Below are positions 6,196 through 29,335 of a DNA stretch of 32,115 nt, one piece after another. Position 1 is the first letter of the stretch; each line of letters begins with the position of its first letter. Source of the stretch: Odoribacter sp. OttesenSCG-928-L07. GTDB taxonomy: Bacteria; Bacteroidota; Bacteroidia; Bacteroidales; BM520. A model generated the notes under the pieces. The model was not told the origin of the DNA, searched no databases, and was given only the letters and a program-made list of their open reading frames with translations. The translations under genes and the position numbers were made by a program. The stretch is taken from NCBI GenBank assembly GCA_030265965.1, contig JAJDHA010000012.1:1-32115 (forward strand), in the 5' to 3' direction.

Positions 6196-8418
6196 TTAAG
6201 GATTAATAAAGTTTCCAATACTTAAATAAAACTCCAATCCTCTTTTATTTAATGATTTATTTAATGATAATTTAATTGGGAAGTTCGATATTTTCAATCC
6301 ATATGACAAGCCAATATATGAATAAATATTTTCAAAATCAATAAATTCTGTTTTAATATCATTATGCACCGATGCTGCTCCAAAAGTTAAAATCAGATAA
6401 TGTCTTTTTAGAAAATTAAATTGCAAATCTTCTTTGAAATGAACTAAATTATTACCTGATAATTGCATATGTTTAAAACCTGCAAAAGGAATCATATTCA
6501 TAAAAGGTTGTGAATCGTAGCTGCCGAGATAATATTGATATGGGAAGAAATTTTCATTAAAAAGACTAATTCCAATATCGATATAAGTATTATAAGTTAG
6601 GTCGAAATGTTTATATTTATTTGTAAATGAGAAGCAAGAGTTAAATGTATTTATCATAAAAGGTTTAATGCTATTTCTTGAAAAATCAGCGAAAATACCT
6701 TTACCCTCATATTGTATTCTTGCGCCTTTCTTTGGAAAAGCATCATTATCCAAAGTATTCATTCTAAACTTGAAATACCCTGTTAAGCATAGATTTCCTA
6801 AATTAAAAATATCAGCAGCAGAAACTCTAACTACTCTTGAGAAAGTTTCGAATTGAGTGCCTATTTTAATAAATGAGTTTATTGATGTATTAAACTTTAG
6901 AAACAAATCGGTAGAAGTATTTAACAATACATATTTTCCGGCAGGAAATCCTTCTTTATAAGTGAAGTAAGGTAAGGTATAAACATTTAGTGAAACGCCA
7001 GGTTGAAATTTCTTTTTTGTTGCAAAAAGATAAGTTGAGTAAAGATATGGGTAAGAGCTTAAACCTAAATCTAAAGTGAAATAAGAACCTTTTACATATC
7101 CGCCAATATTTCTAAATGTAGTATTAAACATTAAGGTTGCAAATTTTTCTTTTGTGAAATTAAATCCCAAACTTACAGTGTTTAAAGACATTTCTTCAAA
7201 ACGCAAAACCATACTGGCACCTTCTTTTCCGGGTAAAAGTTGGTAAGTAACATATTTAAAGAAGAAAGTTCCTCGAAGATTTTCTAATGTTTCTTCAATC
7301 TTATCTAACTTAACATAACCCGGTACTTTAAAAGTAAAGCAATTATTAATAGCATTAGGATTAGTTTTTATTAATCCGGTCATCATCAATGATTCAACAT
7401 AAATAGAATCCAAAGGACGAGTATCTAAGTATTTAAAAGGTTCGCAACCAAGATTTCTTAATGAATCGGCAAGATATTGTAATTCATCATATTTTTCTTC
7501 AGCAGCAACTTTTCCTCTTCGGATTATCTCTTGATTTTGAGCAAAACTACCCGTGTTTAGACCTGTAACATCCGGTCGTATAAGCAAATCAACCGAGGAT
7601 CGACTTTCTAAGTTTGATTTATAACGATTCATATCCATAAACTGATTCATTACATCAAAAACAGTTTTAATAGAATCAGGATCACGCATATCACTTTGAA
7701 CATCTAAGCCTAAAATTGTTCTAACCCCTTTTGCTTTCAAGTTTGCAGCAGGGAAATTATTAATAAATCCGCCATCAATATATTTTTGGTTATCAATATC
7801 TTTTGGTATTAATGCAATTGGAATAGACATACTTGCTTTAATTGCGTCAGGAAAATAGCCTTTTGTTAATTCAACAGGTTCGCCGCTTTCCAAGTCAATT
7901 GCAATACAAAAAAATGGTGTAGGTAATTTGCTGAAATCATCAATCATAAAATACGGACTATACAATCGAGTGAAAAGGTCTTCAACACGTTGCCCGCTAA
8001 GAAGTCCGGAAGGAATTCTCACATTAAAACTCGAATCAAGAGGTAAAGTTAAAAAGTAATTTGTTCTAACATTTTTTTCATAAAATGATAAATTATCAGA
8101 GCTAACTCTATTCCCAAGTAAATGCATCCAATCCATATTGGTAGCAATTTCTTCAAGATATTCAGGAGTATAACCTATTGCTATCATTCCTCCGATAATA
8201 CTACCAATACTCGTTCCTGAGATATATTGAATTGGCATTCCGGTTTTATTAATAACTTCGAGCATACCAATGTAAGCCAATCCTTTAGCACCTCCGCCAC
8301 TAAAAGTAACCCCAACCGTTTTATCGTCGCATTGTTGTCCGAATGATTGCATACCCAAATTAAGTAAACCCAAGATTACAAGAACAAATATTATAATATT
8401 TTGTCGTTTGTGAGACAT
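6196..8418 (-). CDS. patatin-like phospholipase with C-terminal outer-membrane beta-barrel
   Basis: A 740-residue protein with a signal peptide (hydrophobic 8-25, ending SFGQ) and an N-terminal patatin domain. This domain has the oxyanion loop GGGAKG at 41-46, the nucleophile elbow GTSIG with Ser70, and the catalytic Asp in DGG at 215-217; all catalytic parts are present. After about residue 320 comes a short POTRA-like stretch (VPGYVKLDKIEETLENLRG). It is followed by a long series of alternating aromatic/hydrophobic strands with turns (about 400-740), which looks like a BamA/TamA-type 16-strand barrel, as in the PlpD/type Vd class. It is probably a lipid acyl hydrolase held or exported at the outer membrane. 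It starts 13 bp after the M1 peptidase stop, so it belongs to that operon. The patatin domain is certain; the barrel architecture is inferred from strand pattern and length. Confidence 0.9.
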   Translation of the reverse strand: MSHKRQNIIIFVLVILGLLNLGMQSFGQQCDDKTVGVTFSGGGAKGLAYIGMLEVINKTGMPIQYISGTSIGSIIGGMIAIGYTPEYLEEIATNMDWMHLLGNRVSSDNLSFYEKNVRTNYFLTLPLDSSFNVRIPSGLLSGQRVEDLFTRLYSPYFMIDDFSKLPTPFFCIAIDLESGEPVELTKGYFPDAIKASMSIPIALIPKDIDNQKYIDGGFINNFPAANLKAKGVRTILGLDVQSDMRDPDSIKTVFDVMNQFMDMNRYKSNLESRSSVDLLIRPDVTGLNTGSFAQNQEIIRRGKVAAEEKYDELQYLADSLRNLGCEPFKYLDTRPLDSIYVESLMMTGLIKTNPNAINNCFTFKVPGYVKLDKIEETLENLRGTFFFKYVTYQLLPGKEGASMVLRFEEMSLNTVSLGFNFTKEKFATLMFNTTFRNIGGYVKGSYFTLDLGLSSYPYLYSTYLFATKKKFQPGVSLNVYTLPYFTYKEGFPAGKYVLLNTSTDLFLKFNTSINSFIKIGTQFETFSRVVRVSAADIFNLGNLCLTGYFKFRMNTLDNDAFPKKGARIQYEGKGIFADFSRNSIKPFMINTFNSCFSFTNKYKHFDLTYNTYIDIGISLFNENFFPYQYYLGSYDSQPFMNMIPFAGFKHMQLSGNNLVHFKEDLQFNFLKRHYLILTFGAASVHNDIKTEFIDFENIYSYIGLSYGLKISNFPIKLSLNKSLNKRGLEFYLSIGNFINP

Positions 8419-8431
8419 AATCAGATTAAGA

Positions 8432-10741
8432 TTATTTAATTAACATAGCTTTCTGAGAGATGTTTCTTCCGTTTTTCTTTTGAAGGACAAATACAAAAGT
8501 TTGATTTTTTGTATTTGTTTTTGGTGTCCAGTTAATAATTGAAGATTCCTTATTTAAAATAAAATTCTTAATTTTTCTACCTAAGGAATCGTAAACAATT
8601 AAATGCTGATTGTTTATATCTTGTTCAAATACAATATTGAAAGATGATTTAGATGGATTAGGATAAACATTAAGTAAAATATTATCATTATAATTGCTTG
8701 ATATTGAATTAATAGTCGAATCAATTACAGCCAATGTATATTCACCGCTTTTTAAATCATTAAACCAGAGATTTCCTGAAGATATATTGCCATAACGAGT
8801 AGCATTAAGTACATTCCATGCTTCGGAATGATTTATTCTATACATCAAAAATACAGTATCATTATTATTGATTATCAGGTCACTATCTTGGTCTGATTTG
8901 GAATATTGAAAAAGTCCTGTAATATCAACATCACAGTATTTTATAAGGTTTATTTTCCAAAAATGTTTATTAGAAAGTCTATAATTTCCATTAACTTTTA
9001 ATGGCTCATTCGGAGCAACGAAGTAATGTGCAACATGTAAATAGGCTGAATCAGTTATTGGGTTTTCAATATATGAACCAAAATTTGTGTAATTGAATGT
9101 TTGGTTGCCAGCTGTTTTTAAGATTCGTTCAGCATTAAATTTTGCATCATAAATTTTATCATAATAATTTACAAACAACATTTCAGGTTCAATATTTATC
9201 GTGCTATTTGCATATCCGTATTGACCGTCAAATTCAACAAGAATGGTTTCACTATTTAGTAATGAATTCATAAAGGTAATCTCAACTTTATTTCCATTCG
9301 AAATTTCATTTCTATTACTTAATTTTTGTTGAATGTATATTTCAATATCCCAAGTATTATTTCCATTATTATTTGTAATACAAGAATCGATTATATAGCA
9401 TACAGCTCCGCCTTGATATACAAAGTTATGAAAGAAATCATTTAGATCGACTCCAGAGGTGTTGCTAAGAGCTTCACATAAATTTTCAGATGACATTGAT
9501 GAATATGCATTGTTTGCAAGCATATTTTTAACAGAAGAAAAGAATAATTCATCTCCAAGATAATTGCGTAATGAATGAACCACGATTGCTCCTCTTTGAT
9601 ATGCGCTAACGCCATAAGTATTAGTTTCCGGAATTTGATTTAATGGGTAGTAATCGCCGTCTTGGCTAGGTTTATGTGCGTTTCTGAAAACTTGGTTCTT
9701 TGCCGACAATATATTTGAAATATATCTATCTTTACCATATAATTCTTCTTCAAAATAGTATTCTCCGAAGGTTGCCCAACCTTCATTTATCCACATATCT
9801 TTAGCGCTTGCACAAGTAATTAAATTTCCAAACCAAGAATGAAATAATTCATGTGCATACAAACTTTCATAATTTAAATTTGCGGTGATACAAGAGTTTG
9901 GAAATGAGATATTGTTTTGATGTTCCATTGCTCCGATTGATGTTGCAGTATAACCGATTCTTTCAAACATATATGGACCGAATTTATCTTCAAAAATATT
10001 AATTATTTCATGAATATTTTGAAAGAGAACTTCTGCTGCATTAACTTGATCAGGTTTTAAAGTATAAGTAATGGGAATTTCGCCGTTAAGTGCTTGATGA
10101 GAATCTTCGACAACAACATAATCGCCAATTGCAAAAGAAGCGAGATAAGTTGGTAATTCTATCTCTGTTTTATAATGAAAAGTTTTGGTGTTATTGTTGT
10201 TGCTAACAATTTCTTGGAATAATCCACCGGCAGTTGCATGTTTGTCTTCCGGAACAGTTATGTAATAATCGAAAGTAGCTTTATCAATGAAATTATCAAC
10301 ACAGGGAAACCAAGCTTTTCCAAGGTTATGTGGAATTGTACTTATTCCAACGCCGAGATTATAAACGTATTCGCCGTTAAACACTACCCCGCCCCAGCTT
10401 TCGGAAAATGGATGGCCGTGATACCAAATATGAATTTCATTTGAACCTAAAGTTAAATTATTCGAAGTTATTGTAATAACAGAATTGTCATAAACATAAT
10501 CAGTTGTAATATTTCCATTAATAGCAATTTTGTCGATATTCATTTGTAACAAATCGAAAGAAATTGGATTATTTATTTCCGACAATATAGCAGAAATATT
10601 AGTATGTGCGTAAAGAATTTTATTTTGAGTATCGAGTGTATCAATATATATGGTATAATTTTTTACATCAAGTTGATTTTGTGCGTAACAGATGTTAAAA
10701 GAAGCGATTAAAATACTGATTAATAATAAGATTCTACGCAT
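8432..10741 (-). CDS. M1-family metallopeptidase with T9SS C-terminal sorting domain
   Basis: A 769-residue secreted zinc aminopeptidase-type enzyme. A signal peptide (1-20, cut near CYA/Q) is followed by the M1 N-terminal beta domain and the catalytic domain. The catalytic domain has GAMEH at 270-274, the zinc site HELFH at 297-301, and the third ligand Glu320 in NEGWATFGEYY, exactly 18 residues after the second His. The final 80 residues (from about 689) start VYPNPSKSSF and show the ordered blocks of a type A T9SS sorting domain (VYDSLGRKI, then a last beta segment ending KAMLIK). The protein should therefore be exported through the outer membrane and attached to the surface or released. 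It heads a four-gene operon with the patatin, lipoprotein and M20 genes, behind a TACATTTG -7 element. Substrate preference is not visible. Confidence 0.95.
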   Translation of the reverse strand: MRRILLLISILIASFNICYAQNQLDVKNYTIYIDTLDTQNKILYAHTNISAILSEINNPISFDLLQMNIDKIAINGNITTDYVYDNSVITITSNNLTLGSNEIHIWYHGHPFSESWGGVVFNGEYVYNLGVGISTIPHNLGKAWFPCVDNFIDKATFDYYITVPEDKHATAGGLFQEIVSNNNNTKTFHYKTEIELPTYLASFAIGDYVVVEDSHQALNGEIPITYTLKPDQVNAAEVLFQNIHEIINIFEDKFGPYMFERIGYTATSIGAMEHQNNISFPNSCITANLNYESLYAHELFHSWFGNLITCASAKDMWINEGWATFGEYYFEEELYGKDRYISNILSAKNQVFRNAHKPSQDGDYYPLNQIPETNTYGVSAYQRGAIVVHSLRNYLGDELFFSSVKNMLANNAYSSMSSENLCEALSNTSGVDLNDFFHNFVYQGGAVCYIIDSCITNNNGNNTWDIEIYIQQKLSNRNEISNGNKVEITFMNSLLNSETILVEFDGQYGYANSTINIEPEMLFVNYYDKIYDAKFNAERILKTAGNQTFNYTNFGSYIENPITDSAYLHVAHYFVAPNEPLKVNGNYRLSNKHFWKINLIKYCDVDITGLFQYSKSDQDSDLIINNNDTVFLMYRINHSEAWNVLNATRYGNISSGNLWFNDLKSGEYTLAVIDSTINSISSNYNDNILLNVYPNPSKSSFNIVFEQDINNQHLIVYDSLGRKIKNFILNKESSIINWTPKTNTKNQTFVFVLQKKNGRNISQKAMLIK

Positions 10742-23609: not shown

Positions 23610-24269
23610 TTAAATATCTGCAAAGATTGCTGTTCCAATCCTAATTAATGTGGCACCTTCTTCAATAGCAATCTGATAATCATTAGACATTCCCATTGAT
23701 ATTTCTTTAAAAGAATCATTATTAAAAAAGAAATTTTCTTTAAGAATATCAAAATAAGATTTTAGAAGTTTAAATTCGTTTCTGATTTTATTTTCATCAT
23801 CAGAAAAAGTAGCCATTCCCATTACACCGACAATATTAATATTATTCAGTTCTTTATAATTAGTTGAGTTTAAATATTCCGTTATTTCATCAATAATAAA
23901 TCCTTGTTTAGACATTTCATCCGCTATATGAAATTCAAGAAGCACATCCACTACTCTATTAATTTTTTGAGCTTCTTTGTTTACTTCATTAAGGAGTTTA
24001 AAAGAATCTATACTGTGTATGAGTGAAACAAAAGCAATTATATTTTTTATTTTATTTGTTTGAAGATGTCCAATAAAATGCCACTGAATATCTTTAGGTA
24101 GGAAATTATATTTTTCTTGTAATTCTAAGGCTCTATTCTCACCGAATATTCTTTGTCCGGTTTCATAAACTTGTAAAATATTATCGGGAGATTGGTGTTT
24201 AGAAACAGTAACTAACCTAACATTCTTCGGCAGGTTGTTGATTATTCTCTGATAATTGTTTAGATTCAT
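23610..24269 (-). CDS. YggS/PROSC-family PLP homeostasis protein
   Basis: A 219-residue single-domain alanine-racemase-fold protein of the YggS family, which binds pyridoxal phosphate without a known catalytic reaction and buffers vitamin B6 and amino-acid pools. The PLP lysine is K24 in LVTVSKHQ. Other family blocks are FGENRALELQEKY, WHFIGHLQTNKIKNI, and the C-terminal SMGMSNDYQIAIEEGATLIRIGTAIF that binds the phosphate. The ATG at 24269 gives a normal N terminus (NYQRIINNLPKNVRLVTVSK), so the 53-bp overlap with the upstream ligase gene appears real. It is the last gene of the polysaccharide operon, but a link to polysaccharide synthesis is not expected from the family. Confidence 0.95.
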   Translation of the reverse strand: MNLNNYQRIINNLPKNVRLVTVSKHQSPDNILQVYETGQRIFGENRALELQEKYNFLPKDIQWHFIGHLQTNKIKNIIAFVSLIHSIDSFKLLNEVNKEAQKINRVVDVLLEFHIADEMSKQGFIIDEITEYLNSTNYKELNNINIVGVMGMATFSDDENKIRNEFKLLKSYFDILKENFFFNNDSFKEISMGMSNDYQIAIEEGATLIRIGTAIFADI

Positions 24270-25680
24270 TTCTATATTTTATATCTAATGAAACAATTAT
24301 GGCAGCATTTAGCCAAAATATTACAGCAGCTTTATCAATATCGAGATAATTATTCATTATCCCGTGAACCATATATGTTATCAAAGCTAACATACAGCAC
24401 AAAGCAGCATTTTTATCAAATTTATGTGGCGATTTCCAATATATCTTATTTGCTGTAACAATAATTGCGAGAAACATAAGAATAGTAGTAATAATACCGA
24501 GCAATCCTCTTTCAGAGAGAGGTCCTAAATATTCGCTGTGCGCATTACCTTTATCTCCAGCATTAGTACTTGAAATAGTTTTATCCTTCGAAAGTTGAAA
24601 CGGCGCGTAAACAAATTGATATGTTCCCGGTCCCCAACCAAAAACTGGTCTTTCTTTGTACATTCGCAGAGCCGATTGCCATCTATTAATTCTTTCGAGA
24701 TTTGAGGCATCAGAAGAAATATTCGTGGCAGACTTTAAATGTTCGACAAAATCTTGACTTGATGCTTGGGTATTTCTCGACATATACAATAAAATCTGGT
24801 CTTGAAATGCAAAGAATAATCCTAAGCAAATACTACCCGTAATAACAATATAGCGCATTTTAATTCTAAACTTAAAGAGGATAAAAATAGCTAAAGCAAC
24901 TAATCCGCTAACCCATGCAGCTCTTGTATAAGAAAAGATAATTCCTAATATTACAATTACAGTAGCAGCAAACGACCATAATCTCTTATTTTTTGAGTGT
25001 TCTTTATCGAAAGTATAAAACAGCAAAAAAGGAAGAATAAAAACAACAATAGCTCCATAGCTGGTATGTTCAGGGAAGAAAGGTTTCATTGCCCAAAAAC
25101 TTGCACGTTTAGAAAAACCATATTGCGAATGGTGAATAAGCGTGTAAATAACAACAATTATCATGGCAATAATATATGCCCATTGATATTTATTGATATT
25201 TTCCTGTGATTTAAATATTTTTGCTGCAACAAAATAGCACGGAATAATAAACCATAGTTGTGCTAATAGATGTTTAAATGAGACTAAAGGTAGTTCACTT
25301 GTAAAACAAGTAATCAAATACCATATTAAATTTATTATTACAAAAATGGAAACAGGATGATTTAGAATTTGTTTATCAAGTTTTCTATCATACAAAACTT
25401 TTAAAAGAATAATAAAAGAAAACGCCAACAGCATTGGTTCATCAGGAACATTTGCTGTTATTCCAAACTCTTCAATTTTTAAGGTAATTGATAAAGGTGT
25501 AAGAAAAGTAATAATTAATAAAACCTTATCGAGTGCAAAAAAATACAGACAAGCTACACCTATTAATACTGGTACTGCAATAGGTAACCAAGGTATTTGC
25601 TTAACAACACATACTGCGACAAAAATTATAAATGCTGCACAGAATGCATATATGCCGTATATTTTTTGCTTTTCGCTCAT
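24217..25680 (-). CDS. O-antigen ligase/polymerase-type membrane protein (Wzy_C/WaaL)
   Basis: A 487-residue polytopic membrane protein with about 11-12 helices and one large periplasmic loop. The loop (about 290-400) holds the hallmarks of the Wzy_C/WaaL superfamily: ERINRWQSALRMYKERPVFG WGPG with its conserved Arg, and GNAHSEYLGPLSERG with the catalytic-type His at 381. Members either join polymerised glycan to a lipid or protein carrier or polymerise undecaprenyl-linked repeats; sequence alone does not separate the two. It lies 21 bp after the second Wzz gene and downstream of the flippase, so it should act on the same glycan in the inner membrane. Its hydrophilic C-terminal tail (ESKQLSENNQQPAEEC) is encoded in the overlap with yggS. 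Confidence 0.9.
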   Translation of the reverse strand: MSEKQKIYGIYAFCAAFIIFVAVCVVKQIPWLPIAVPVLIGVACLYFFALDKVLLIITFLTPLSITLKIEEFGITANVPDEPMLLAFSFIILLKVLYDRKLDKQILNHPVSIFVIINLIWYLITCFTSELPLVSFKHLLAQLWFIIPCYFVAAKIFKSQENINKYQWAYIIAMIIVVIYTLIHHSQYGFSKRASFWAMKPFFPEHTSYGAIVVFILPFLLFYTFDKEHSKNKRLWSFAATVIVILGIIFSYTRAAWVSGLVALAIFILFKFRIKMRYIVITGSICLGLFFAFQDQILLYMSRNTQASSQDFVEHLKSATNISSDASNLERINRWQSALRMYKERPVFGWGPGTYQFVYAPFQLSKDKTISSTNAGDKGNAHSEYLGPLSERGLLGIITTILMFLAIIVTANKIYWKSPHKFDKNAALCCMLALITYMVHGIMNNYLDIDKAAVIFWLNAAIIVSLDIKYRNESKQLSENNQQPAEEC

Positions 25681-25701: not shown

Positions 25702-26619
25702 TTATTCTTCTTCTTTCTTATTAGGAATATTTTCAACACAAATAAAAGCGACATAAGATAACATAAATGCTGCAATACCTGAAAAAAGAACAATTATCCA
25801 ACGAACTGGTGTTGACTTTTTATCTGCAACATAAGGATGTGATAACATATTTGTATATGAGAATTCTTTTTGCAAGTTTGCATAAGCAATATTATAATTC
25901 CCCAATAAAGTTTCTAATGAGCCATTAATAGCCATTAACTGCAAAATACTATTTAAATATTCAGGTCCAACACTATCGATATATCCGATAGATGAAGAAT
26001 TATTGGCTTTTTTGGATGTAATACCCAAAGCTTTACTTATATAAAAAAGCAAATCATTTGATGCGCCAATCTCAACAATTTCTTCCGTCAATTTTGCAGA
26101 TTGTGCTAAAGACCGTTCAATTGTTTTTTCATAAATAGGTACAACTTCACCAAATTTTTCTTTGTGGATTTTTCTAATATTAATATTAAGAAAATCAATA
26201 ATTGAATTAACCATATCACAAGCAATCTGAGGGTCCCTGTCAAATACTGTGATTGAAATAGCATCATAAGAGTTTTGTTCAATCTTAACATTATTATCAT
26301 ATTCATTAATAATGTAAGCTAAAGATTTTGGCGAACCTTTTTCAATTCCGTAATGTTCATAAAGGTTATATTTTTCAATGACTTGCCATTTAATATCCGA
26401 CGATAAAAACCATTGAAATAATTGTTCCGACTCGCTTTCATCAGAATATGGACTAATATTAGATGGGTAAACTACAGCTACAGACTTATATTTCGGTGTA
26501 ATAAATTTTGGTGATGAGAAAATCACCCCGATAATCATACCAATAATTGAAATGATTAAAATATGGATTTTCCTTTTCCATAATATATCCCAAAGTTTTT
26601 TAGCAGAAAAATTATTCAT
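25702..26619 (-). CDS. Wzz/PCP chain-length regulator, second of tandem pair
   Basis: A 305-residue polysaccharide co-polymerase. A cytoplasmic N terminus (MNNFSAKKLWDILWKRK) leads into TM1 (about 18-36), then the proline-rich FSSPKFITPKYKS, a periplasmic helical domain with VIEKYNLYEHYG and ISITVFDRDPQIACDMVN, then KKSTPVRW and TM2 (about 274-295), with a short acidic tail. It is clearly a paralogue of the gene just upstream: the segments before and after each helix align. Such proteins set polymer length together with Wzy or the ligase. There is no tyrosine-kinase domain. Its frame is open upstream across the 62-nt spacer back to the A12 tract at the end of the first gene, which permits a frameshift fusion. 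Good as family; exact glycan unknown. Confidence 0.9.
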   Translation of the reverse strand: MNNFSAKKLWDILWKRKIHILIISIIGMIIGVIFSSPKFITPKYKSVAVVYPSNISPYSDESESEQLFQWFLSSDIKWQVIEKYNLYEHYGIEKGSPKSLAYIINEYDNNVKIEQNSYDAISITVFDRDPQIACDMVNSIIDFLNINIRKIHKEKFGEVVPIYEKTIERSLAQSAKLTEEIVEIGASNDLLFYISKALGITSKKANNSSSIGYIDSVGPEYLNSILQLMAINGSLETLLGNYNIAYANLQKEFSYTNMLSHPYVADKKSTPVRWIIVLFSGIAAFMLSYVAFICVENIPNKKEEE

Positions 26620-26681
26620 ATTATTTAATGTTTTATTATCAATTACTTCTAATTTTTTATCAAAATTATTTGTTATTTTAC

Positions 26682-27785
26682 TCAGTTGTTTTTTTTTTTT
26701 ACTTTTGAAGTTGAAATTTCAGTTATTGTATTTACAACTTCTTCTTTCGAATTATTTTTAGGAAGATATTTTATTTTAGATAATTCTGTAGGAAAAATCT
26801 CTGCAATTACTATAATAATAATAGTCATAAGAAAAACAGATAAAGTTGATATTACTACAATTAACCATCTAATTGGATATGATTTTTTTTCGGCAGAAAA
26901 AGCTTCTGAAATAATGAATTTTTGTGTCAATTCTTGTTCAGCATCTAATTTTGCCTCTTCATATTTTACTTTAATCAAACTTAATTGACGTTTATCATAG
27001 TCTAACTGATCTCTAATAGATACATAAGGTGTTCCATATTTAGCAAGAATATCTAACTGTTTTTGTAAATCGTTGACAGCTCTTGTATTTCCATTAGCAA
27101 TTTGAATTGCAAGTTGATTATTTATTGCTTCAGCCTGAGTTTCGTAATCGTTAATGCCAAGTGATCTTAAAACTGCAAGAGAATCTTCCATTTTTTGAAT
27201 ATCACTGATAAGACTCATGTAGGTTTGTTCAACAATCAGATATGCTTGTTCAGCTCTCTCTTTCTGCATATTAATAGCCGTACTGTCGTACAATGCACCA
27301 ATCTCATTAGCAATATCGGATGCCATTTGCGGATCTTTATCCATAACTGTTACCGACACAGCCATAAACTCTGTCCTACGAAACTTAATATTTTCATTAA
27401 ATGTTTTATTGAGTTTAGTGTATTTGTATGAAGAATTAGAGTAACCATAATGCTCGAGTAAATTAAATTTTTCTATTACTCTGTCTCTTATTTTGTTTGA
27501 GTTTAAAATTTGCAACATTTGATCAATTTGCTCATCTTCACCATATTGAAGCACGTCTTGCTTAATGCTTACCTGATCTGTAAGTAATGCTTTAGAAATA
27601 GAATTACTTGATGCAGGAAACATTATCATTTGAGATTTATACTTTGGAGTAATAAATAACGGTGATGAAAAGAATGATGATAAAATAATCGTGATAAAAC
27701 AAACCCAAAACAGCAATTTATAATTCCTGATAAGAATATTTATAAAAAAACCGGTTTCTAATTTATTGTCAATGTTGGATTTCAT
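26682..27785 (-). CDS. Wzz/PCP chain-length regulator, first of tandem pair
   Basis: A 367-residue polysaccharide co-polymerase. TM1 (about 24-41) is followed by FSSPLFITPKYKS, then VIEKFNLLEHYGYS and VSVTVMDKDPQMASDIANEIGALYDS. A long coiled region (about 170-290) comes next, then KKSYPIRW and TM2 (about 308-332), and a cytoplasmic tail of some 35 residues ending KVKKKNN. The periplasmic coil is longer than in its paralogue. The last codons include 12 consecutive A (26700-26689) with the heptamer A AAA AAC in zero frame, two codons before TGA. The gap to the flippase is 75 bp and holds no exact TAnnTTTG (only TATCTTTA), so it is probably read from the flippase promoter. Confidence 0.92.
   Translation of the reverse strand: MKSNIDNKLETGFFINILIRNYKLLFWVCFITIILSSFFSSPLFITPKYKSQMIMFPASSNSISKALLTDQVSIKQDVLQYGEDEQIDQMLQILNSNKIRDRVIEKFNLLEHYGYSNSSYKYTKLNKTFNENIKFRRTEFMAVSVTVMDKDPQMASDIANEIGALYDSTAINMQKERAEQAYLIVEQTYMSLISDIQKMEDSLAVLRSLGINDYETQAEAINNQLAIQIANGNTRAVNDLQKQLDILAKYGTPYVSIRDQLDYDKRQLSLIKVKYEEAKLDAEQELTQKFIISEAFSAEKKSYPIRWLIVVISTLSVFLMTIIIIVIAEIFPTELSKIKYLPKNNSKEEVVNTITEISTSKVKKKNN
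26688..26700 (-). promoter_or_regulatory. A12 slippery tract with A AAA AAC heptamer
   Basis: Twelve A residues followed by C on the coding strand at the end of the first Wzz gene. Zero-frame codons are AAA AAA AAA AAC AAC TGA. A -1 ribosomal shift on A AAA AAC, or one extra A by polymerase slippage or mutation, continues at CAA (26688). It then runs 23 codons without a stop into the ATG of the second Wzz gene, in frame. The fused product would be 694 residues. The tract is directly visible; its use as a recoding site is inference. Confidence 0.5.
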
Positions 27786-27860: not shown

Positions 27861-29318
27861 TTAATCATCAGATTTTATCATTTTAATCAATTCTTTAATA
27901 TTTAACATGTTAAGTGCAAAAGCGCTAATGATAATTAGAATAACTATTATTATTGATTTATAATACCATAGTAAATTTAATTTTGTTGAGAAATAACCAA
28001 ATATTATGACTATCAAAACTAAAGCAATAACACGTAGAATTGTTTTAATAAGATTTGATCCTATTTTAAAATTAAAGATTTTTTTAATAGTAATTATTTG
28101 TAAAATAACGACTGCAGATTGTGTAACTACACCTGTAATCGCTGCACCAACTACTTGAATCTTCGGGATTAAAATAAGATTTAAAATCAAATTCAATAAC
28201 ATACAAGCAGCAGCAATAATATTTAGTTGTTTTAAACTGCCATTTGCAGTAAGTAATGTGCCGAAAATATATCCATACGACATTCCGGGCAAACACAACA
28301 GAAGTATTTTACAAACTTTTGCCGACAAATCAATATAATCGTCATACATTAAATCCATTATCTCAAAAGAATAAAACCAAGAAATGGCTGTAAAACTTAA
28401 AACAAATATTGTCAAAAAGTTAAACGCAACACCTGTTATGCCTTTTACATCTTCTTTATTAGCAAGCATTCTTGAAAAAATCGGCAGAAGCAAAACAGCA
28501 AATAAATAAGAAAAATTTATCAATGCTTCTAACAATCGAAAGGAATGTGCATAAATACCAACTTGGATTTGTCCTTCTACACCTGGAATCATTTGTGCTA
28601 ACATCACTGAATCAACTCTGTTATAGAATGACATTAAGAATGTTAATGTTGCATACGGCAAACTTTGTTTTAAAATATTAAAAAAGAATTTTCTATCCCA
28701 TTTTAAACGCTTAAATTTAGCTTTCTTAATCACTATAATCAAAGCTACAAGAGCAGTGACAATATATGAAACTGTTTGAGCATATATAAACCATTCTATT
28801 TTGAATGTCCCCGGGAAAATTTTGGTATATAAAAGAATAGAACAGAATATTATGAGTAAAAATTTATCAAGAATCGACAAAAAGCTGTCGGTGACAAACA
28901 TTAATAAGCCCGATATATTAGACCTAAGATATAAGACAAATGATAATAGAAACTGATTAAAAGCAAGTATTCCTAAAAGATAAAACTGTCGTGAATCATA
29001 ACCCATAAAATAAGCAATGATAAACGCTATGACAATATATCCTAATCCTAAAATTAAGCGTAAACTTAATATTGAGGCAAAATTATTTTCGAGGAAAGTT
29101 GAGTTTTGTGCAATTTTTCGATTATTAAAATTCACAATTCCCATGTCTAATAAAATGTTTATTATAAATGTGAAATTAAAAATCGAAAGATATAATCCGT
29201 ATTCTTGCGCTCCAACTGTAAATTGTACTGTTCTATCTATAAAAAGAATGTAAAACGGCTTTATAAGCACATTTAACAATACAAGAAGAATAAGATTAAG
29301 AATAAATTTTCTCTTCAT
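27861..29318 (-). CDS. Wzx-type polysaccharide flippase (MOP superfamily)
   Basis: A 485-residue polytopic membrane protein with about 14 predicted helices. An early segment, GAQEYGLYLSIFNFTFIINI then LLDMGIVNFNNRKIAQN, is characteristic of polysaccharide-biosynthesis flippases of the MOP superfamily. These move undecaprenyl-PP-linked glycan repeats across the inner membrane. The start is the ATG at 29318 (MKRKFILN); a TTG six bases upstream is possible but less likely. It is the first gene of the five-gene operon with two Wzz proteins, a ligase/polymerase and YggS, under a TATTTTTG promoter divergent from purD. No glycosyltransferase lies in the window, so the glycan must be built by genes elsewhere. 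Confidence 0.92.
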   Translation of the reverse strand: MKRKFILNLILLVLLNVLIKPFYILFIDRTVQFTVGAQEYGLYLSIFNFTFIINILLDMGIVNFNNRKIAQNSTFLENNFASILSLRLILGLGYIVIAFIIAYFMGYDSRQFYLLGILAFNQFLLSFVLYLRSNISGLLMFVTDSFLSILDKFLLIIFCSILLYTKIFPGTFKIEWFIYAQTVSYIVTALVALIIVIKKAKFKRLKWDRKFFFNILKQSLPYATLTFLMSFYNRVDSVMLAQMIPGVEGQIQVGIYAHSFRLLEALINFSYLFAVLLLPIFSRMLANKEDVKGITGVAFNFLTIFVLSFTAISWFYSFEIMDLMYDDYIDLSAKVCKILLLCLPGMSYGYIFGTLLTANGSLKQLNIIAAACMLLNLILNLILIPKIQVVGAAITGVVTQSAVVILQIITIKKIFNFKIGSNLIKTILRVIALVLIVIIFGYFSTKLNLLWYYKSIIIVILIIISAFALNMLNIKELIKMIKSDD

Positions 29319-29335
29319 TAACAAAATTTAATCTG

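Follow-up and report, generated by a model that had tools for sequence, protein, structure and literature searches.

Slippage on poly-A runs is a known kind of recoding. In the magnesium chelatase genes of a GeneTack cluster, adjacent ORFs, the second in the -1 phase, are joined by runs of A7-A11; orthologues also occur as true fusions, and the product has been tested in E. coli, where poly-A cassettes from these genes gave 10% (A7), 40% (A9) and 63% (A11) of shifted product (PMC3711429). In Thermus thermophilus dnaX, an A-run lies within one ORF, and slippage on it yields a truncated product in a set ratio (PMC1088944, PMC5009743). Similarly, the split orfA-orfB frames of IS elements are joined by polymerase slippage on about nine A (A9; PMC1088944). 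Convincing cases of programmed slippage kept across a lineage in chromosomal genes are rare, and we found none for surface polysaccharides.

The known rings of Wzz chain-length regulators of the PCP-1 type (WzzE, WzzB and FepE) are homo-oligomers of single-domain chains; the WzzE ring, for example, is reported as an octamer arranged as four dimers with C4 symmetry (PMC12004945). WzzP of Porphyromonas gingivalis, considered as a possible relative, is a Wzz of 63 kDa whose C-terminal region is long, and no frame issue was found in the passages of its description that were consulted (PMC3684754). We came across no double-PCP chain in the literature searched, and no Wzz with transcriptional slippage, frameshifting or read-through was found in the open-access literature searched, supplements being outside its scope. 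The use of poly-A slippage at a Wzz polysaccharide locus thus appears to be unreported within that literature; it may still have an entry in a recoding database, as the GeneTack cluster lists and other supplements fell outside the search.

Here we describe a tandem pair of Wzz genes from Odoribacter sp. OttesenSCG-928-L07, in a 32,115-nucleotide stretch of contig JAJDHA010000012.1 (the window). The pair resembles the PCP-1 proteins in its match to the Wzz family, in having a helical periplasmic domain flanked by two membrane helices and in its predicted fold, and it adjoins Wzx and Wzy genes, as PCP-1 chain-length regulators do; unlike the known rings, a double chain is proposed. With the magnesium chelatase genes this pair and its relatives share the -1-phase split, the A-run and the fused orthologues; they differ in the type of protein, in that the Wzz tract is kept inside the fused orthologues and in that the second gene keeps its own start. 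The dnaX design is that of the fused Wzz loci with a tract, although dnaX encodes a single-gene tau/gamma pair, with no second paralogous domain and no split state in that species. The IS elements share the split frames and the A-run, but encode the transposases of mobile elements rather than belonging to a chromosomal polysaccharide operon.

Anatomy of the Wzz1-Wzz2 junction

The features of the locus, all on the minus strand, are listed in the order of transcription.

27861..29324, minus strand: Wzx-like flippase, directly upstream of Wzz1 (Pfam Polysacc_synt/MatE)
26682..27785, minus strand: Wzz1 polysaccharide co-polymerase, 367 aa (Pfam PF02706, E 2e-6)
26689..26700, minus strand: proposed A12 slippage tract, which begins 16 nt ahead of the Wzz1 stop codon
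26682..26684, minus strand: TGA stop of the unslipped Wzz1 frame (from the sequence)
26620..26688, minus strand: 23-codon stop-free linker in the -1 frame, QLSKITNNFDKKLEVIDNKTLNN (by reading the sequence)
25702..26619, minus strand: Wzz2 polysaccharide co-polymerase, 305 aa, starting at an ATG of its own (Pfam PF02706, E 2e-9)
24217..25680, minus strand: Wzy polymerase / O-antigen ligase-like protein, directly downstream of Wzz2 (Pfam Wzy_C)

The PF02706 scores exceed the gathering score for both proteins, and the position of the flippase upstream of Wzz1 is kept in relatives. Wzz1 is laid out as a membrane helix, periplasmic helices, a second membrane helix and a charged cytoplasmic tail that ends in VKKKNN-stop. 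Its 3' end reads GTA AAA AAA AAA AAC AAC TGA, with exactly twelve A in the assembly. From CAA at 26688, the -1 frame runs through 23 sense codons to the Wzz2 ATG at 26619, in frame, and the linker QLSKITNNFDKKLEVIDNKTLNN contains no ATG, GTG or TTG start codon; one A added to the run therefore gives a Wzz1-Wzz2 product of 694 residues. This anatomy is shown directly by the assembly, and on re-check it bore out what a sequence-only reading had claimed for the A12 run, its coordinates, the stop-free 23-codon spacer in the -1 frame and the 694-residue total. The assembly comprises 1.67 Mb in 117 contigs (74% complete), and A12 occurs in it just twice. The other A12 (L039, G000:C74:19320-19331) falls in no ORF of more than about 30 codons.

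AlphaFold models of the two window proteins, made singly (pLDDT 74.5 and 77.9), fit a fold in which two membrane helices flank a periplasmic alpha/beta base with a long helix. In fold searches of the PDB, the predicted Wzz1 fold matched WzzE, Wzc and KpsE, and that of Wzz2 matched WzzE (C4 symmetry), Wzc, KpsE and FepE. The domains were modelled apart because the fused-chain alignment laid rows of the second domain onto the first. A PDB sequence search with Wzz1 and an Rfam search of the junction region gave no match.

Tract, frame and linker in relatives

To place this junction among its relatives, profile models for the two proteins, made for this survey, were run against about 400 genomes, and 136 loci, nearly all from the order of the window bacterium, were classified by our own scripts. 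The sample held one assembly per species, mostly metagenome assemblies, and run lengths were not checked against reads. We counted as a tract any run of nine or more A lying between the last Wzz1 helix and the first Wzz2 helix. Such a tract was present in 37 of the 42 tandem pairs with Wzz2 in the -1 phase (A9-A12), in 4/16 pairs in the +1 phase and in 17 of the 20 single-ORF fusions, at the equivalent place and again as A9-A12. It was present in none of the 19 in-frame (frame-0) tandem pairs and in one of the 39 single-Wzz loci (L184), whose contig ends just after the gene, so that no complete single-Wzz locus among those surveyed carries a tract. Across 58 tract loci the length was nine A in 12, ten in 35, eleven in 8 and twelve in 3 (mode 10), and A7-A8 was never found in the -1-phase tract class. 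Runs of at least nine A numbered 60 per 15.3 kb in Wzz1-Wzz2 linkers versus 10 per 191 kb elsewhere in both genes, a density about 75 times higher, and no T run of nine or more was seen in the linkers.

Tracts were found in 25 of the 37 families with two Wzz genes, and the tract loci fell into 39 in the -1 frame, 17 fused and 4 in the +1 frame. On the Wzz1 tree, split loci are interspersed with fused ones, including within genera g111 and g127. Outside the order only 2/30 tandem pairs have an A-tract, both in the -1 phase. While this distribution is shown, it is on comparative evidence only that a run of 9-12 A is likely to have been evolutionarily kept in the window bacterium, which is of a gut type, and in dozens of its relatives. 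In genus g77, L080 has A9, the -1 phase and an open linker, and L090 has A8, frame 0 and linker stops; tract and open linker seem to have been lost together there.

The linkers point to translation. From the Wzz1 stop to the Wzz2 ATG, the tract class contains 0 stops in 997 gene-2-frame codons versus 262/1994 in the other frames (13%; P ~1e-61); with one locus per family, the counts are 0/512 versus 146/1024 (P ~6e-35). These P values assume independent codons and serve as a guide only. All 37 tract-bearing -1-phase tandem pairs have a stop-free linker, and tandem pairs without a tract contain linker stops (7/72, 4/111 and 6/49). An upstream start of Wzz2 cannot account for the open frame, since 27 of 39 linkers (12-63 codons) contain no ATG, GTG or TTG; a start-type codon lies within ten codons of the tract in just one of the 39. 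In 12 of the 39, the gene-2 frame opens at, or no more than 3 nt from, the start of the tract, and past the tract the median distance to a stop is 4 codons in the Wzz1 frame and 6 in the +1 frame. The linkers diverge quickly, and the frame is nonetheless kept. As they are too short and too fast-evolving for dN/dS (about 0.16 over 18 codons between the window and its closest relative, ~0.25-1.3 elsewhere, several saturated), stop counts were used as the main proof. We consider it likely that the linker is translated, an inference from sequence constraint without expression data.

Within the genus the picture is more varied. The closest relative, G004, has a Wzz1 77% identical to that of the window and an A9 tract in the same V-K-K-K context, but its Wzz2 lies in the +1 frame, which would need a +1 or -2 shift; the frame of gene 2 becomes open exactly where the tract lies, and both genomes have the word KLEVI[DN]NK in the linker. 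Two other members, G001 and G002, have no tract; their Wzz1 stop is TGA, with Wzz2 in the same frame and no further stop. In the sister genus, G005-G007 carry single ORFs of 738-761 aa with both Wzz domains and an A10 run at the junction. At genus level, therefore, the phase is not conserved and the open junction is. The sequence-only reading had asked whether tract, -1 phase and stop-free spacer are kept in relatives; this held at the order level (37/42, all with open linkers) and failed for the exact phase within the genus. The phase difference between sister species, the tract inside fused genes and the TGA that apparently replaces the tract elsewhere were absent from that reading. In most loci the tract starts 14-50 nt past the last Wzz1 helix, typically ~30 nt; in the window it starts 107 nt past it, and in the window and G004 alike the distance is about 100 nt, owing to a longer Wzz1 tail. 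The tract of the window may possibly be a re-evolved site, given this different position.

Ten families contain true single-ORF double Wzz proteins, which indicates that the fused topology is viable, as had been supposed for the window pair. In these ORFs, slippage by one base either way leads to a stop 4-36 codons later, so the products would again be Wzz1 alone and the double protein, as in Thermus dnaX (PMC5009743). The strongest argument for selection on slippage itself, rather than on one particular frame, is that the run is retained in split and fused genes alike. In addition, every one of the 20 fused ORFs has a Met at the Wzz2 start (L067-L069, L079, L081, L082, L084, L088, L091, L108, L137, L139, L146, L148, L149, L151, L152, L168, L169 and L179), with freely varying residues before it. 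Internal initiation that still yields free Wzz2 is the simplest reading of this invariant Met, and free Wzz2 is probably made from its own start, although this is inferred from sequence and without expression data.

Proposed mechanism and rival explanations

On this comparative evidence, and with no product observed, we propose that the A12 is likely to be a programmed slippage site giving free Wzz1 and a Wzz1-Wzz2 fusion. RNA polymerase would slip on the A12, possibly aided by -1 ribosome slippage on the AAA codons, and produce mixed transcripts. Unslipped mRNA would give free Wzz1, with its stop a few codons past the run, whereas mRNA that has gained one A or lost two would be read through the linker into Wzz2, giving the 694-residue double co-polymerase with four membrane helices; the Wzz2 ATG would probably supply free Wzz2. 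The output would be free and covalently linked Wzz subunits at a set ratio. Such a link would hold the two types side by side in the ring with which Wzz determines the length of the glycan chain, and both that length and the composition of the ring could depend on how many subunits are linked relative to free ones. The occurrence of slippage, its ratio, the ring model and the effect on glycan length are all inferred; the shift percentages reported for magnesium chelatase concern other genes and are no forecast for this locus.

The polymerase mechanism is likewise an inference, drawn from sequence alone, and we regard it as likely. It is favoured by the floor of nine A in the tracts, by the lack of stimulators, by the lack of a preferred AAN phase and by the +1 sister species. 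Coding runs are selected against at about nine nucleotides in many bacteria (PMC1088944), a length that this floor matches. Across the 58 tract loci there was no downstream structure (mean z -0.23), and an SD-like motif lay upstream in just 2/58. A AAA AAN is in frame in 14/39 of the -1 tract loci, which is no preference, and the phases at the tract end are mixed. As the strong -1 bias (39 versus 4) also fits ribosomal -1 shifting, a mixed mechanism is possible. Against our explanation stand the phase change within the genus (A9 and +1 in G004) and the two members with an in-frame TGA instead.

A first rival is a purely ribosomal shift, programmed -1 frameshifting on A AAA AAC/A that involves no change in the RNA. 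It has in its favour that the canonical heptamer A AAA AAC is in phase in the window (which is unavoidable in long A-runs), that -1 predominates (39 of 43 split tract loci) and that runs of A stimulate -1 shifting in E. coli (PMC3711429). However, the 58 loci lack a downstream structure and, but for two, an upstream SD-like stimulator; A AAA AAN is in frame in only 14/39; A7-A8 is missing from the class, though the heptamer needs just 6-7 A; and the tract is kept in fused in-frame genes, while the sister species G004 needs +1. We consider this explanation unlikely. Phase variation, in which changes in chromosomal run length would switch the cell between split and fused Wzz, is much less likely still. 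Homopolymeric runs do mutate fast, close relatives do differ (-1 in the window, +1 in G004), and genera do mix split and fused states; but the frames of tract loci are far from even (39 in -1, 17 fused, 4 in +1), and in the -1 state the linkers have remained open despite large divergence. For a contingency locus, a poly-A run of 9-12 is also short.

It is also highly improbable that the two genes are merely ordinary neighbours, or a fusion that broke recently, with the A-run and open linker a chance or relic feature or with an upstream gene-2 start. The AT-richness of the genome, the plain tandem genes of some relatives and the fast evolution of linkers speak for this view; against it, the linkers show 0/997 stops versus 13% in other frames, runs of at least nine A are enriched 75-fold, 27/39 linkers lack a start codon, and the tract is absent from single-Wzz loci. 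A homopolymer miscount, with a true run of A13 or A10 and a gene that is simply fused, could be suspected in a metagenome assembly where the run length rests on the assembly alone. Yet a -1-phase run of this kind recurs in 37 separate assemblies, and a true A13 would only move the window to the group of fused loci with a tract, in which free Wzz1 is what slippage would yield; we hold a miscount to be very doubtful as an explanation.

Programmed slippage thus remains the preferred reading, and the claims of the sequence-only reading can be set beside it. Chance, which it had kept as an alternative, is contradicted by the rarity of A12 (two in the genome) and the ~75-fold enrichment in linkers. 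Its view that the fused topology is allowed is supported by the natural single-ORF double Wzz proteins of ten families. Its suggestion that A12 favours polymerase slippage fits lengths of nine or more, the absence of structure and of a heptamer preference, and the tract in fused genes; its report of no strong downstream stem-loop also held, none being conserved in 58 loci. Separate and fused regulators in a set ratio are supported comparatively, with no product observed, and switching by tract length was the weaker part of its inference.

If programmed slippage is true, one locus would set the ratio of free to tethered chain-length regulators, whether and how two types of Wzz share one ring could be tested directly, and many such pairs would prove to be misannotated as two independent genes.

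The TGA class and a bolder reading

The stop codons of in-frame pairs were analyzed in the order sample combined with 40 loci from outside the order, a long spacer being a stop-free one of at least 60 nt from the stop to the first helix. In frame-0 tandem pairs with a long spacer, the Wzz1 stop was TGA in 13/13 (background 39/174 stops, p 2e-8), and the next base was A in 9 and C in 4 of them, without a single G or T (A or C in 16/39 of the background, p 2e-4). The TGA-class spacers of the order sample combined have 0 stops in 354 gene-2-frame codons, although their substitution patterns are weak; at short spacers the Wzz1 stop is mostly TAA or TAG. UGA read-through is therefore a candidate, though only a possible one, for a second route where the tract is absent, inferred from sequence and without experimental test. 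Genome-wide recoding of UGA to Trp in these loci is unlikely, as no other in-frame TGA was seen in full-length ORFs; tRNAs were not part of the basis for this judgement.

A bolder reading is that the whole Bacteroidota order needs covalent Wzz1-Wzz2 together with free subunits, and obtains them by interchangeable routes: poly-A slippage in split genes, or in fused genes where it releases Wzz1, and UGA read-through, with an internal start yielding free Wzz2. Taken as a whole, this could as readily prove wrong as right. If it is true, the recoding ratio would be a conserved control of glycan chain length. The tract, fusion and TGA states at one junction offer a natural experiment on the replacement of one recoding route by another.

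The 13 loci with a single in-frame TGA and a long open linker are L029, L030, L086, L114, L143, L145, L154, L156, L161, L205, L221, L222 and L229; the junctions of L222 and L229 both read GAATGACTACGGAAACC. Elsewhere in the window, 6196-8418 (minus strand) encodes a patatin-like phospholipase fused to an OMP85-type barrel, and 8432-10741 (minus strand) encodes a Peptidase M1 protein whose C-terminal stretch resembles a Por secretion (type IX) sorting domain, with a score slightly under the Pfam cut-off.
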